DNA from: a bacterium
GTDB lineage: Bacteria; Chloroflexota; Chloroflexia; Chloroflexales; Kallotenuaceae
Assembly: GCA_016781505.1 (NCBI GenBank)
Contig: JADDQF010000024.1
Coordinates: forward strand, 1-64,000
Direction: 5' to 3'
Length of the DNA stretch: 64,000 nt
The notes under the pieces are model-generated. The model worked only from the letters and a program-made list of their open reading frames with translations, made no database searches and was not told where the DNA came from. The position numbers were made by a program, and so were the translations under genes. Positions 34,324 through 39,771 of the stretch are shown piece by piece; the first letter of the stretch is position 1; each line of letters opens with the position of its first letter.

Positions 34324-35765
34324 CACGGGGTGCTATGGCTGAGCTGCGCGGCAAGCGGGTGCTGGTGATGGGCCTCGGGGTGCACGGGGGTGGCCTGGGC
34401 GTTGCGCGCTTTCTGGTAGAGCAGGGAGCTGACGTTACCGTTACCGACCTGCGCACAGCCGAGCAGCTCCAGCCAACGTTGGACCAGCTCGGGGAGCTGC
34501 CCGTGCGCTATGTGTTGGGTGAGCACCACGAGGCGGACTTTCGCCAAGCCGACATGGTTGTCCGCAATCCTGGCGTCCCCCGTGAATCGCGCTACTTGCA
34601 GATCGCGCGTGCGGTCGGCGCGGCCATCGAGATGGAGATGACGCTCTTCTTTCGGCTCTGCCCTGGCCCTATCATAGGGATCACCGGCACCAAAGGCAAG
34701 ACCACGACTACTCTGCTGACGGGCGCGATGCTTCGGCAGCAGCATCCCGATACGGTGGTAGCGGGCAATCTGCGCATCTCGGCCCTGGAGCAGCTGCCCA
34801 AGGTCGGGCGCGACACGCCGGTGGTGCTAGAGCTGTCGTCGTGGCAGCTGGAGGGCTTGGGCGAGGCCAAGCTGAGCCCACAGTACGCGTGCTTCCTGAA
34901 CCTTTCGCCGGATCACCTGGACCGTTATGGCTCCATGGCAGACTACGCGGAGGCCAAAGCGCAGATCTTTTTGCATCAGGGTCAGGCTGATACGGTGATC
35001 TTCAACGCCGACGATCCCCTGGTGCGCGGCATGAGCGCGCGCGCCAGGGGCAAGGTGGGCTGGTTCCGTGGACCAGCCGCTTCCTTGGAGGCTAAACCAG
35101 CCCCCGTGGTTGAGCGAGGTACACAGTCCATGGCGACCTGGCAGGCTGACACGCTGGTTTGGCAGGACGGCGCGGTGGTTGAAACGATCTGTCACAGATC
35201 GGATATCAAGCTCGTCGGTGAGCATAATCGGGCAAATGTAGCGGCGGCGGCGGCACTGGCAAAAGCATTTGGAGCAGAAACGGAGCGGATCAGGAATGCG
35301 ATTACGAACTTCACGGGCGTGTCGGATCGTATGGAGGATGTGCGCACAGTCGATGGCGTGCGATATATCAACGACACGACGGCGACGGCGCCGGCAGCGG
35401 CCATTGCGGCCCTACGTAGTCTCGACGTGCCAGCCATCGTTATTGCAGGTGGAGCGGACAAGCAGCTAGCGTTTGATGATCTCGCGCAAACATTGGTGGA
35501 ACGCGCCAAAGCGATCGTGCTGCTGCAAGGAACAGCCACGCCCAGGCTGCAAGCTGCCTTGGCTGACGTCCTGCGGTGCAGCGACCGTCAACCCTGGATC
35601 AGCGAGCCGCAGCCCGCGCTCAAGCCCGCGGTGGAAGCAGCGCGGGAGCACGCGGCGCCCGGCGACGTGGTCCTGCTGTCGCCCGGCTGTGCCAGCTTCG
35701 GTATGTTCAGGAATGAGTTTGATCGCGGTGAGCAGTTTCGCCAGATAGTGCGAGCCCTACCATGA
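34320..35765 (+). CDS. murD: UDP-MurNAc-L-Ala-D-Glu ligase
   Basis: 481-aa Mur ligase adding D-Glu to UDP-MurNAc-L-Ala. It has the N-terminal Rossmann fold ([19 protein letters not shown]), the ATP loop [12 protein letters not shown], the [13 protein letters not shown] region and the C-terminal motif [16 protein letters not shown]. The ATG at 34320 overlaps the mraY stop (ATGA). ATG 34335 (MAELRGKRV) is a possible alternative. The end overlaps the rhomboid gene, again as ATGA. Confidence 0.95.
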
Positions 35766-36625
35766 TGGATGAGCGCCGGCCGGACGACGAGATGCGTGAG
35801 ATGCTGGCACGCCTGGAGCGTGAGTTCCAGGCGCGTGCGCAACCGCCCGACGAGGGCACAGTTGCGCGCACGCCGGAAGCTGTCCCACCCTACCGGCCGG
35901 TGCAGCGCGTACGGCTCACGCTGCCCCTGCATCGGCCCAGGGCGGTCTATGCGCTGCTGGCAATAAATGTGATCATGTTTGGGATCACGTTGTTGCTGGC
36001 GAGTCGCTTAGCTAGCAATGGTGCGGCCTTGTATATTCTGGGCGCCAAAGAAAATCAGGCCATCGACAGCGGCCAATGGTGGCGGCTGCTCACGCCCATG
36101 GTGCTGCACGGCAATCTGACGCATCTGTTGTTTAACTCGTGGGCGCTGTACTCGCTGGGCATGGAAGCGGAGCGCATGTTTGGCACAGCCCGCTTCCTGG
36201 CCGTGTACCTGCTGGCCGGGCTGGCCGGCAGCATTGCCAGCTACATGTTCAATCCCGCGGCGCTGTCGGTCGGTGCGTCAGGGGCGATCTTTGGCTTATT
36301 GGGAGCGCTCGCGGCGTTTTCGTTCTCGGCGCGCTCCTTGATCGGCTGGGAAGCATCCAAGATGCAGCTGGGACAGATGGCCACGTTGGTCGTGATTAAC
36401 CTGGCCTTTGGCCTGGCGGTGCCGAATATCGATAACTCGGCGCATATTGGTGGATTGCTCGTAGGCGGAGTGGCGGGGCTTGGGCTAGCGCCGCGCTACG
36501 GTGTGGATCGGCGCAGCTTCACACCCACCTTGGAACGGCGTGATCGGCCATTCGCTGGCTGGTTCATGGCGGGCGGCTTGTTGGTCGGCTTGATTGTCTG
36601 GTTTCTGGTTGCGCGCTCGGCGTAG
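35762..36625 (+). CDS. Rhomboid family intramembrane serine protease
   Basis: 287-aa membrane protease with a cytoplasmic N-terminal tail of about 58 residues and six to seven membrane segments. The dyad is Ser173 in GASGAIFG and His228 in NSAHIGGL. His121 and Asn125 of the oxyanion region (HLLFN) are also present, so it should be active. Substrates are unknown. It is coupled to murD by an ATGA overlap and sits in front of ftsW. That suggests a link to envelope or division proteins, although rhomboids are not standard dcw members. Confidence 0.93.
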
Positions 36626-36689: not shown

Positions 36690-38096
36690 ATGTTTGACAC
36701 GAATCGCCGTCCGCCGGATCGTACGCTGCTCGCGTTGGTGCTGGGCCTGTCCGTGTTCGGTCTGGTGATGGTGTATAGCTCCAGCTTTTATATTGCCGTC
36801 AGCGAGGGCAATCCGCAGACCTACTACCTGCTGCGGCAGCTGGCCTGGATGCTGATCGGCGGCGTCGGACTGCTGGTGGCGCAGCGGATCGATTACCGGG
36901 TGTGGCGCCGGGTTGCACTGCCGTTGCTTGCCTTTACCGTGGGTCTGCTGATCTTGGTGGTGCTGTTGCCGGACCATATTTCGGGCAGCAACGGCGCCAA
37001 GCGCTGGATTCGCATCGGCGGCTTCCAGTTTCAGCCAACCGAGCTGGCAAAGTTTGCGCTGTGCGTGTATCTGGCTGCTTGGCTCATGACGCGCGGCGAT
37101 AAGCTCAAGTCGATGACGGCGGGCTTGATCCCGTTCGGCATGGTGCTGGGTCTGTTCTGCGGCATTATGTACCTGCAAAGCAACGTGAGCTCGGCGTTTA
37201 TGCTGATCATCATCGCCACTGCGATCTATTTTGCGGCAGGGGCCAACATTCTGCATATCATCGCGGGCATGATCGCTGCCGGCACGCTTGGCTCGCTGGT
37301 GATCCAAACGCTTGGCCACGCCGGTACGCGGCTCAAAGTCTTCAACGATCCGTGGGCCTATCCCCGCGACGGCGGCTGGCAGCCGGTGCACTCGCTGTAT
37401 GCGCTGGCCTCCGGTAACTGGTTTGGCCGCGGGCTAGGCCAGGGCCGCCAAAAATTCTTATGGCTACCCTACGCGCACTCAGACGCCATCTTCAGTGTGA
37501 TCGGCGAAGAGCTGGGCTTGATCGGGACATTTGTGCTGGTGGGCGCATTCCTGCTGTTGGCCTATCGGGGCTTTCGCATTGCCGCGCGCTCACAAGACCC
37601 GTTTGCGGCCCTGATGGCGGTCGGTATTACCAGCTGGGTCACGTTCCAGGCATTCTTGAACATGGCGGTCGTGTCGTCGCTGATCCCGTTTACCGGCCAA
37701 ACGCTGCCGTTCATCTCCTACGGTGGCACCTCCTTGGCGATGTGTTTGTTCGCCATGGGCGTGCTGCTCAATATCTCGAAACATGTTGATGATCAACGAC
37801 CCGAACCTGTCGTCAGTCCCGCCGTCGAGCGACCAGCCGCGCGGCCACCTGCGCGGCGGCCAATCAGCCTCGTCCCCAATCTCGCTGCTCTTGTGCGGCG
37901 GCGGAACCGGGGGCCACGTGTATCCGGCGCTGGCAGTCGCTTCAGTTTTGCCCGCGCGGACAGGCGCGCAGAGGTTGCCGTCAGCGGACGCGGCTGGCGT
38001 AAATACAGCTCCACCAGCAAGCCGGCAGCTACCAGACGTACCTCGGGCAAGCGTGTCAGCGCCAGCCAAAGCGGCGGCACCTGGCGCAGCCGCTGA
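36690..38096 (+). CDS. ftsW: Septal peptidoglycan glycosyltransferase FtsW, with long C-terminal extension
   Basis: SEDS-family polymerase of septal glycan strands acting with FtsI. The conserved core, about ten membrane segments, runs from MFDTNRRPPDRTLLALVLG to FISYGGTSLAMCLFAMGVLLNISKHV (near base 37790). WFGRGLGQGRQKFLWLPYAHSDAIFSVIGEE-type motifs lie inside it. The frame then stays open for about 100 further codons, rich in Arg, Pro and Ser, that overlap murG in another frame. The tail may be translated or may be the result of a lost stop. AGAAGGTC precedes ATG 36690. Confidence 0.93.
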   Translation: MFDTNRRPPDRTLLALVLGLSVFGLVMVYSSSFYIAVSEGNPQTYYLLRQLAWMLIGGVGLLVAQRIDYRVWRRVALPLLAFTVGLLILVVLLPDHISGSNGAKRWIRIGGFQFQPTELAKFALCVYLAAWLMTRGDKLKSMTAGLIPFGMVLGLFCGIMYLQSNVSSAFMLIIIATAIYFAAGANILHIIAGMIAAGTLGSLVIQTLGHAGTRLKVFNDPWAYPRDGGWQPVHSLYALASGNWFGRGLGQGRQKFLWLPYAHSDAIFSVIGEELGLIGTFVLVGAFLLLAYRGFRIAARSQDPFAALMAVGITSWVTFQAFLNMAVVSSLIPFTGQTLPFISYGGTSLAMCLFAMGVLLNISKHVDDQRPEPVVSPAVERPAARPPARRPISLVPNLAALVRRRNRGPRVSGAGSRFSFARADRRAEVAVSGRGWRKYSSTSKPAATRRTSGKRVSASQSGGTWRSR

Positions 38097-39183
38097 CCCA
38101 ACGCTACGCTTGATGTACGTTGGCTCGTATGGCGGAATGGAGGAAGGACTGGTGGCGCGTGAAAGTGGGCTGCCCTTTCGCGCAATCACGGCAGCGGCGG
38201 TGCGTGGACGTGGTCCGCGCGAGCTGGCTCGGAACAGTGTGCTGATTGCGCGGGGAATGGGGGAAGCGCGGGCACTGCTTCGACAGGTGCGGCCGGCGGC
38301 GATCCTGGGCACGGGCGGTTATGTTGTCTTTCCGCTCTTTGTGGCGGCGCGACAGCTCGGCGTGCCCACGATGATCTATCTGCCCGACATCGTGCCGGGC
38401 CTGGCGGTCAAAGCGTTGTCGCGGATCGCCACGCGGGTAGCTTGCTCGTTCGAGCCGTCGCTCAAATACCTGCCACGGGCCAAAACGGTTGTCACGGGCT
38501 ATCCCGTACGCCCGGAGCTGTTTGGGGTGAACACGCCGGCGGCCAAGGCGGAGTGTCGCGCGGCGCTTGGGGTGACGGCTGAGCTGCCGGTGCTGCTGGT
38601 GTATGGCGGCAGTCGCGGCGCGCGCAATATTAATCGGGCGGTCGAGGCGTTGCTGCCGGAGCTGCTGGAGCTGGCGCAGATCATTCATGTGTGTGGACGT
38701 GAAGGCGACGACGTGTGGCTGCGGGCTGCGGCAGAGCGTTTGCCGGCGCCACTGCAGGCGCGCTACCACCTGTTCCCGTATTTGCATGGTGGAGGTGCAG
38801 GAACTACCGCTTCATCTGCGGACGGCGTGGCGACCATGGTGCAGGCGTTTGGGGCTGCCGATCTGGCGATTGCGCGGGCGGGTGCGTCGACGCTGGCCGA
38901 GCTGCCCGCCGCGGGCTTGCCCGCGGTGCTGGTACCATTGCTCGCCGTTAAGCAGGACGAAAACGCGAACTATCTGGTGGAACGGGGGGCGGCGGTCAGC
39001 GTCCCCGACGAGGCGATGCTGGGGATGGGAGCGGCGGTGGACGGGCCGCTTTTTCGGGAGGTACGGCGGTTGCTCACGGATACACAGGCGCGCGAAAGCA
39101 TGGCGCAGCAGAGTGCCGCACTGGCACGACCGGACGCCGCCATCCGGCTCGCCGACGAGCTGCTGCATCTCGCCGGTGTTTGA
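37783..39183 (+). CDS. murG: UDP-GlcNAc--undecaprenyl-PP-MurNAc-pentapeptide transferase, with insertion
   Basis: GT-B enzyme converting lipid I to lipid II at the membrane. It has 466 aa, against about 360 usual. The N-terminal CGGGTGGHVYPALA loop, GTGGYVVFP, VYGGSRGARNINRA and ARAGASTLAELPA motifs are intact. The extra length is a 35-residue tail before the first strand and a Pro/Ala/Ser-rich insertion at residues 58-107, between VLPART and LRLMYVGSYGGMEE. There is also a small insert near HGGGAGTTASSADG. The only plausible starts, ATG 37783 or 37789, lie inside ftsW. Confidence 0.92.
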   Translation: MLMINDPNLSSVPPSSDQPRGHLRGGQSASSPISLLLCGGGTGGHVYPALAVASVLPARTGAQRLPSADAAGVNTAPPASRQLPDVPRASVSAPAKAAAPGAAADPTLRLMYVGSYGGMEEGLVARESGLPFRAITAAAVRGRGPRELARNSVLIARGMGEARALLRQVRPAAILGTGGYVVFPLFVAARQLGVPTMIYLPDIVPGLAVKALSRIATRVACSFEPSLKYLPRAKTVVTGYPVRPELFGVNTPAAKAECRAALGVTAELPVLLVYGGSRGARNINRAVEALLPELLELAQIIHVCGREGDDVWLRAAAERLPAPLQARYHLFPYLHGGGAGTTASSADGVATMVQAFGAADLAIARAGASTLAELPAAGLPAVLVPLLAVKQDENANYLVERGAAVSVPDEAMLGMGAAVDGPLFREVRRLLTDTQARESMAQQSAALARPDAAIRLADELLHLAGV

Positions 39184-39195
39184 AGGAGTCCGCCG

Positions 39196-39771
39196 ATGAC
39201 CATTCCGTACCAGCTCCTGATCCTTATCCCGTTCCTGATCATGGGCGTCTTTGGGGGCTTGCGCCGTGGCTGGATCGAAGAAGCGATCACCACGATCGGT
39301 TTGATCTTTGCCCTGGTCTTTTTCAGCAATGTCGAGCGGACCAGCTTGCTGGGCGTGCTGATTAATCGAGTGGTGCAGGCATTCGCGCTGTTTTTCGGCG
39401 CGCTGCTGGGCACGACCTTTGAGGCCCAGGGCTTGGTCGAGATCGGCAATCCCAATGTGTTTCAGTTCGTTGGCTTTGTCCTGACGGTTATTCTGGCGTA
39501 CATTGTCGGCAGCGCTGTCGGTCGGCGCCGCGGCCTAACCCGGCTCGGGTATGCGATGGGCGGCATTCTAGGAGCGATTAATGTCTTTTTGGTTGCATCG
39601 CAGCTGATTACGTTTATCACACAATACTTTCCGAACTTTTTCGAGCGGACGGTGACGGTTACATCGGAAGGTGGAAACGTTCTACGAGAATATCTGCCGT
39701 CAATCTTCGCGCTGTTGTTTATCTTATTGCTGGTAATATTTTTTCTACGTTTGCCCAAGATTCGAAGCTGA
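39196..39771 (+). CDS. CvpA-like membrane protein
   Basis: 191-aa protein with four to five membrane segments. The first hydrophobic stretch is followed by GGLRRGWIEEAITTIGLIFAL, the pattern seen in CvpA (colicin V production) proteins, whose role in envelope stability is poorly understood. The match is by layout, so the name is tentative. TGAAGGAG precedes the ATG. It is wedged between murG and murC with 12 nt and 0 nt spacing, so it is part of the dcw transcript. Confidence 0.7.
   Translation: MTIPYQLLILIPFLIMGVFGGLRRGWIEEAITTIGLIFALVFFSNVERTSLLGVLINRVVQAFALFFGALLGTTFEAQGLVEIGNPNVFQFVGFVLTVILAYIVGSAVGRRRGLTRLGYAMGGILGAINVFLVASQLITFITQYFPNFFERTVTVTSEGGNVLREYLPSIFALLFILLLVIFFLRLPKIRS

Follow-up and report, generated by a model that had tools for sequence, protein, structure and literature searches.

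The peptidoglycan genes ftsW and murG are essential in model bacteria. In the 64,000-nt stretch of Kallotenuaceae DNA analysed here (the window; contig JADDQF010000024.1, assembly GCA_016781505.1) the two genes appear to share several hundred nucleotides, which raises the question of whether one stretch of DNA encodes parts of both proteins or whether ftsW has simply lost its stop codon, the two options left by the original prediction. Overlaps of this size are not expected: Palleja et al. (2008; PMC2478687) found no real co-directional overlap longer than 60 bp among 715, accepted 56 bp as the longest and proposed that longer cases are errors. For long same-strand overlaps, the phase seen here is expected to occur more often than the other phase (PMC3887535, PMC2542354). 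The source genome is a draft of 159 contigs; Chloroflexota and Roseiflexaceae MAGs are among its named relatives. We consider it very probable that this is a genuine, conserved dual-coding overlap, in which murG is initiated internally and MurG carries a disordered spacer that codes for the tail of another protein, both products presumably being translated.

The genes lie in a mur cluster with the order mraY, murD, a rhomboid gene, ftsW, murG, a weakly CvpA-like gene, murC and murB (features of the overlap are listed in Table 1). The rhomboid gene, between murD and ftsW (35762–36625), encodes a rhomboid-family membrane protease (PF01694). The gene between murG and murC (39196–39771) encodes a small membrane protein with a weak CvpA/Colicin_V-like match of 24.6 bits, under the Pfam cut-off of 29.3.

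Table 1. Features of the ftsW–murG overlap (window coordinates)
Feature	Position	Strand	Description and basis
ftsW CDS	36690..38096	+	468 aa; ATG 36690, TGA 38094-38096; TIGR02614 and Pfam PF01098
murG CDS	37789..39183	+	464 aa (37783 as alternative start); MurG structures are the top PDB matches in both sequence and fold; start kept in family
Dual-coding overlap	37789..38096	+	308 nt; murG +1 relative to ftsW; codes entire FtsW tail, residues 367-468; selection in both frames
Internal murG start region, inside ftsW	37767..37791	+	AU-rich, without Shine-Dalgarno, least structured part of the region; MFE and GC
Overlap segment 1	37789..37896	+	MurG N-terminal extension (disorder predicted at residues 1-26) / FtsW linker; AlphaFold2 pLDDT <50 at 1-26; constraint mixed
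Overlap segment 2	37897..37947	+	MurG GGGTGGH loop and helix 1 / FtsW basic stretch RNRGPRVSG; substitution counts
Overlap segment 3	37948..38093	+	MurG insert (disorder predicted at residues 64-102) / end of the FtsW tail, containing RGWR and SGGTWRSR; FtsW-dominated substitutions

The upstream product belongs to the FtsW (SEDS) family, as a putative septal peptidoglycan polymerase: it scores 359.2 bits against TIGR02614 (cut-off 337.5) over residues 10–365, the membrane core, and 309 bits against Pfam PF01098. The TIGR02614 match ends at residue 365 (base 37784), in agreement with the original prediction, which put the end of the conserved core near 37790 in a frame that stays open to 38096. 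Because this NCBIfam model ends at residue 365, the 102 overlap-coded residues constitute the entire cytoplasmic tail. The downstream product scores 216.4 bits against TIGR01133, under the equivalog cut-off of 250.25; the score is 230.9 bits with the insert computationally removed, and the MurG of an insert-free relative (G049) scores 254.5 bits. The protein is nevertheless the sole strong TIGR01133 match in the genome (the runner-up has 53 bits), and five out of 14 control genomes likewise score under the cut-off. Both GT28 domains are found (PF03033, 76.5 bits; PF04101, 75.9 bits) and the six best fold matches are all MurG crystal structures. Since the TIGR01133 cut-off was missed, we identify the product as a MurG orthologue by fold, motif and synteny, with a predicted lipid II synthase activity.

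We surveyed 82 genomes of the order, of which 75 have ftsW and 72 have a readable ftsW–murG pair. The overlap is found in all 72 readable adjacent pairs; its length is 110–320 nt, with a median of 137, and murG is in the +1 frame in every case. Both frames are thus open and kept in relatives, and in no genome of the order with an adjoining murG does ftsW terminate directly behind the core. The whole order has the overlap as a fixed trait; it is not a peculiarity of one species. In all five other genomes of the source genome's family FtsW is matched over its full length including the tail (57–80% identity). The longest overlaps as a group are found in the clade (99/89 support) that unites this family with its sister family: 15 out of 15 genomes are long-tailed, reaching 185–254 nt past the MurG loop, and some other long-tail cases are found elsewhere in the order's tree. 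Outside the order, a Caldilineales MAG has the overlap in the same relative frame, extending 191 nt past the loop; some other Chloroflexota have no overlap. Among other Chloroflexota loci (L035, L198–L217 and others), +1-phase ftsW–murG overlaps of 62–191 nt past the MurG loop are seen in several other families. Loci from E. coli and from Bacillota and Actinomycetota are weak controls (murG adjoins ftsW in very few of the latter).

Similarity of the tail by itself was set aside as evidence: the GGGTGGH loop of MurG forces a RGPRVSG-like stretch in the FtsW frame. Because conservation of the loop thus forces part of the similarity of the FtsW tails, we sorted the differences in 20 independent pairs of genomes according to which of the two proteins they alter. 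Within the MurG insert, changes that alter only MurG (62/1028) occur at the neutral rate, whereas those that alter only FtsW are reduced (30/1025; Fisher P = 9e-4). For the source genome's family, the relative rate over the insert is 0.48 for MurG-only-altering changes, similar to the silent rates in ftsW (0.44) and murG (0.51), as compared with 0.26 for FtsW-only-altering and 0.17 for both-altering changes (Fisher P = 0.02). In the sister family the contrast is strong, with 13/405 MurG-only, 0/422 FtsW-only and 1/743 both-altering changes (Fisher P = 8e-5). Over the loop segment the asymmetry is reversed (6/1149 MurG-altering versus 53/1218 FtsW-altering changes), and here the MurG-silent rate is about half that of the remaining murG (P = 8e-10), which fits a constraint from FtsW as well, although lower silent rates near gene starts could add to this reduction. 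Divergence by codon position gives the same picture: it is FtsW-like in ftsW and MurG-like in murG, and within the overlap the MurG pattern holds for 51 nt counted from the start of the loop, giving way to the FtsW pattern over the remainder in most genera. Taken one pair at a time, the tests are weaker and not significant (P = 0.08 and 0.14 for the two pairs of the source genus; P = 0.41, with no contrast, for a single wide sister-family pair). Purifying selection therefore acts on both proteins within the overlap, but the constraint is divided: MurG dominates over its catalytic loop, and FtsW dominates over the MurG spacer, which is predicted to be disordered and in which MurG drifts. The codon-position comparison among relatives that the original prediction had suggested supports the first of its two options, two encoded proteins, and its expectation that so long an overlap constrains both genes holds, with each gene protected in a different part. 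Conservation in 72 out of 72 pairs and this substitution pattern are the main evidence for the overlap.

The tail itself has features of its own. It is predicted to be disordered except for a short helix (396–405) and is basic, with 24 R+K versus 6 D+E in 104 residues; an RGW motif is conserved across the family, and SGGTWRSR across the genus. In each of the four families the loop segment has more arginine and lysine than would be predicted from the codon usage of MurG alone. In two relatives in which murG does not adjoin ftsW, G080 (L229) and Kouleothrix aurantiaca (L040), a basic tail of similar length is kept, free of the constraint imposed by MurG; both may be natural cases in which murG was replaced and the overlap thereby lost. 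G080 has a divergent, insert-free MurG match elsewhere, resembling the MurGs of sister families. The tail probably serves FtsW, perhaps via acidic partners or the membrane, and by analogy with what is generally known of FtsW tails it might bind FtsZ, the membrane or MurG.

The least improbable alternative is a neutral overrun: loss of the stop by an ancestral ftsW, with the −1 frame of murG open by chance at high GC, would leave a useless tail that is still translated. Long overlaps of this phase are indeed expected without selection (PMC3887535), and when MurG codons are resampled synonymously the ftsW frame stays open by chance with P = 0.56 in the source genome, unsurprising at its high GC, so that frame openness was rejected as evidence in this genome. 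In the sister family, however, the same openness is improbable (P = 0.0005–0.25; six out of nine genomes ≤0.0035); the mirror test, MurG-frame openness under resampling of FtsW codons, is weak (P = 0.05–0.9). The depletion of FtsW-altering changes over the insert (strong in the sister family), the excess of arginine and lysine, and the persistence of basic tails in the two relatives without an adjoining murG all speak against a useless tail, and we regard a neutral overrun as improbable.

We next consider the site at which murG starts. The GGGTGGH loop begins at 37897, as originally placed, and murG-frame ATGs are found upstream at 37783 and 37789, giving an overlap of 314 or 308 nt, respectively (about 314 nt had been predicted). 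Five relatives in the source genome's family keep a murG ATG 31–39 codons upstream of the loop, and as one of them (G002) has just the ATG equivalent to 37789, this is the likelier start. The earlier claim that MurG can only start at 37783–37789 was correct as to the two ATGs but too strict, as a TTG at 37891 also precedes the loop; initiation there would remove MurG strand beta-1. In the other three families SD-like motifs are written into the FtsW codons at the internal murG start (in 9/9, 30/37 and 9/20 genomes; 48 out of 66 together, against a background of 2–4% of ftsW positions). No Shine-Dalgarno sequence was found at the murG start in the source genome's family; the start region there is weakly structured (MFE −3.1 versus a mean of −11.0, with just 2% of windows weaker) and has a GC content of 0.44 versus 0.63. 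Translational coupling would call for an upstream stop near the downstream start, but here 305 nt separate the murG start from the ftsW stop downstream of it (110–320 nt in all relatives), and classical termination–reinitiation is therefore unlikely. The SD-like motifs in relatives and the unstructured start in the source genome's family point to independent initiation of murG at an internal site as the best inference.

A start past ftsW, at the ATG at 38113, would abolish the overlap and make the upstream reading in the MurG frame spurious. This ATG is in frame and only 17 nt past the ftsW stop, the family HMM match begins at about 38062, and annotated long overlaps arise more often from mispredicted downstream starts than from any other cause (PMC2478687). 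However, a protein starting with MYVGSYGG would be deprived of strand 1, the GGGTGGH loop and helix 1, which are well modelled and conserved with the MurG-type substitutions counted above, and the MurG starts of other families have their SD-like motifs inside ftsW; we therefore hold this start to be very unlikely. The same ATG is an annotation trap, as overlap-averse gene callers could shorten MurG to MYVGSYGG..., without the loop. Equally slight is the chance that the overlap is the window of a programmed +1 frameshift in ftsW producing an FtsW–MurG fusion: murG is in the +1 frame and an in-frame ftsW/murG fusion is known in one actinomycete (PMC4929429), but most relatives have an ATG and SD-like motifs at the internal start, the MurG start is conserved, and no conserved slippery site was noticed on casual inspection. 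An assembly or sequencing indel near the 3' end of ftsW, conceivable in a 159-contig draft, has a negligible probability, as both frames stay open for the same length in five independent family genomes, the tail is uninterrupted and has conserved motifs in six out of six family genomes, and the arrangement recurs in 72 genomes of the order; relatives thus reject both an indel and a lost ftsW stop.

The part of MurG that shares its DNA with the end of the FtsW tail has the features of a spacer. The best solved MurG aligns to residues 33–57 and then from residue 110 onward, and the insert between them is absent from solved MurGs. In the AlphaFold2 model of MurG (mean pLDDT 81) confidence is low at residues 1–26, 64–102 and 334–346 (the last being a loop beyond the overlap); the disorder of the MurG insert, like that of the FtsW tail, is a prediction. 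The ftsW stop falls at MurG residue 102–103, just upstream of strand 2 (106–113), and it precedes this strand in 69 out of 70 genomes. The lengths of tail and insert co-vary (Spearman 0.81), also in phylogenetic contrasts (r = 0.62, P = 8e-9; 27 out of 31 non-zero contrasts in the same direction), and a longer tail and a longer insert occur together on several separate branches: f1+f2, G013/G048, G055, G076, G066/G068 and G067/G036/G070, as well as the Caldilineales locus L035. In five readable MurGs that do not adjoin ftsW this stretch has 27–32 residues, i.e. it is insert-free. In one genome (G059, locus L026) the MurG insert is long and the FtsW tail short, so the tail cannot account for every insert. 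The L026 insert, between MurG helix 1 and strand 2, is a long low-complexity repeat (RGTEEQRGRGTGG...).

The arrangement would work as follows. Ribosomes translating ftsW would stay in frame 0 across the entire start region of murG, extending FtsW by a basic, disordered tail of ~102 residues; MurG would be initiated independently at the internal ATG at 37789 and read in the +1 frame, its start presumably uncoupled from termination of ftsW. Over the GGGTGGH loop and helix 1 MurG would be the protected product, the FtsW tail getting what remains; downstream of helix 1, where the extra disordered loop of MurG would be nearly free in sequence, the tail would be the protected one. MurG would thus tolerate a spacer that serves largely to code the end of FtsW. 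We suggest, tentatively and as something we think rather less likely than its opposite, a broader reading: that MurG has repeatedly been given a disordered loop mainly as coding room for the tail of the upstream gene, and that the overlap is also regulatory, with FtsW ribosomes crossing the murG start and setting the ratio of MurG (the lipid II synthase) to FtsW (the polymerase that uses its product).

Among known systems, the dcw cluster of E. coli K-12 has the same two genes in the same order, also with the ftsW stop past the murG start, but there the overlap is the usual 4-nt start–stop overlap (ftsW 98403–99647, murG 99644–100711) that can couple translation, and MurG has no insert, as compared with 308 nt here. 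The 56-bp overlap accepted in PMC2478687 is likewise a conserved same-strand terminal overlap of two functional genes, but it is much shorter than the 110–320 nt found here, and no spacer domain of the downstream protein was reported for it. The closest precedent found for two housekeeping genes is Thermus rnpA–rpmH (Feltens et al. 2003, as described in PMC9841429), in which one stretch likewise encodes two housekeeping proteins in two frames of one strand; according to that description, rpmH is wholly nested in rnpA and the two have one shared start site, unlike the terminal overlap with a separate internal start seen here. In the actinomycete K. flavida the same neighbours are physically joined by an in-frame ftsW/murG fusion (PMC4929429), but as one polypeptide in one frame, not as two proteins in two frames. 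Our search of the open-access literature found no description of an ftsW–murG overlap in Chloroflexi. The overlap is a same-strand overlap of a known type, but an unusually long, old and well-supported one, with a spacer in the downstream protein.

The overlap, in which both frames are presumably translated, contradicts the 2008 claim that there is no real co-directional overlap longer than 60 bp (PMC2478687). According to the widely cited rule, same-strand overlaps longer than about 60 bp are annotation errors; here they are 110–320 nt long, order-wide, and under measurable selection in both frames. One practical consequence is a warning that annotated FtsW tails and MurG N-termini of Chloroflexota may be too short. 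The locus also offers a natural system for the effect of one gene's ribosomes on internal initiation of the next gene, and it illustrates a mode of sharing DNA in which the fold of one protein has priority where it is needed, and elsewhere its disordered insert absorbs the constraint of the other.
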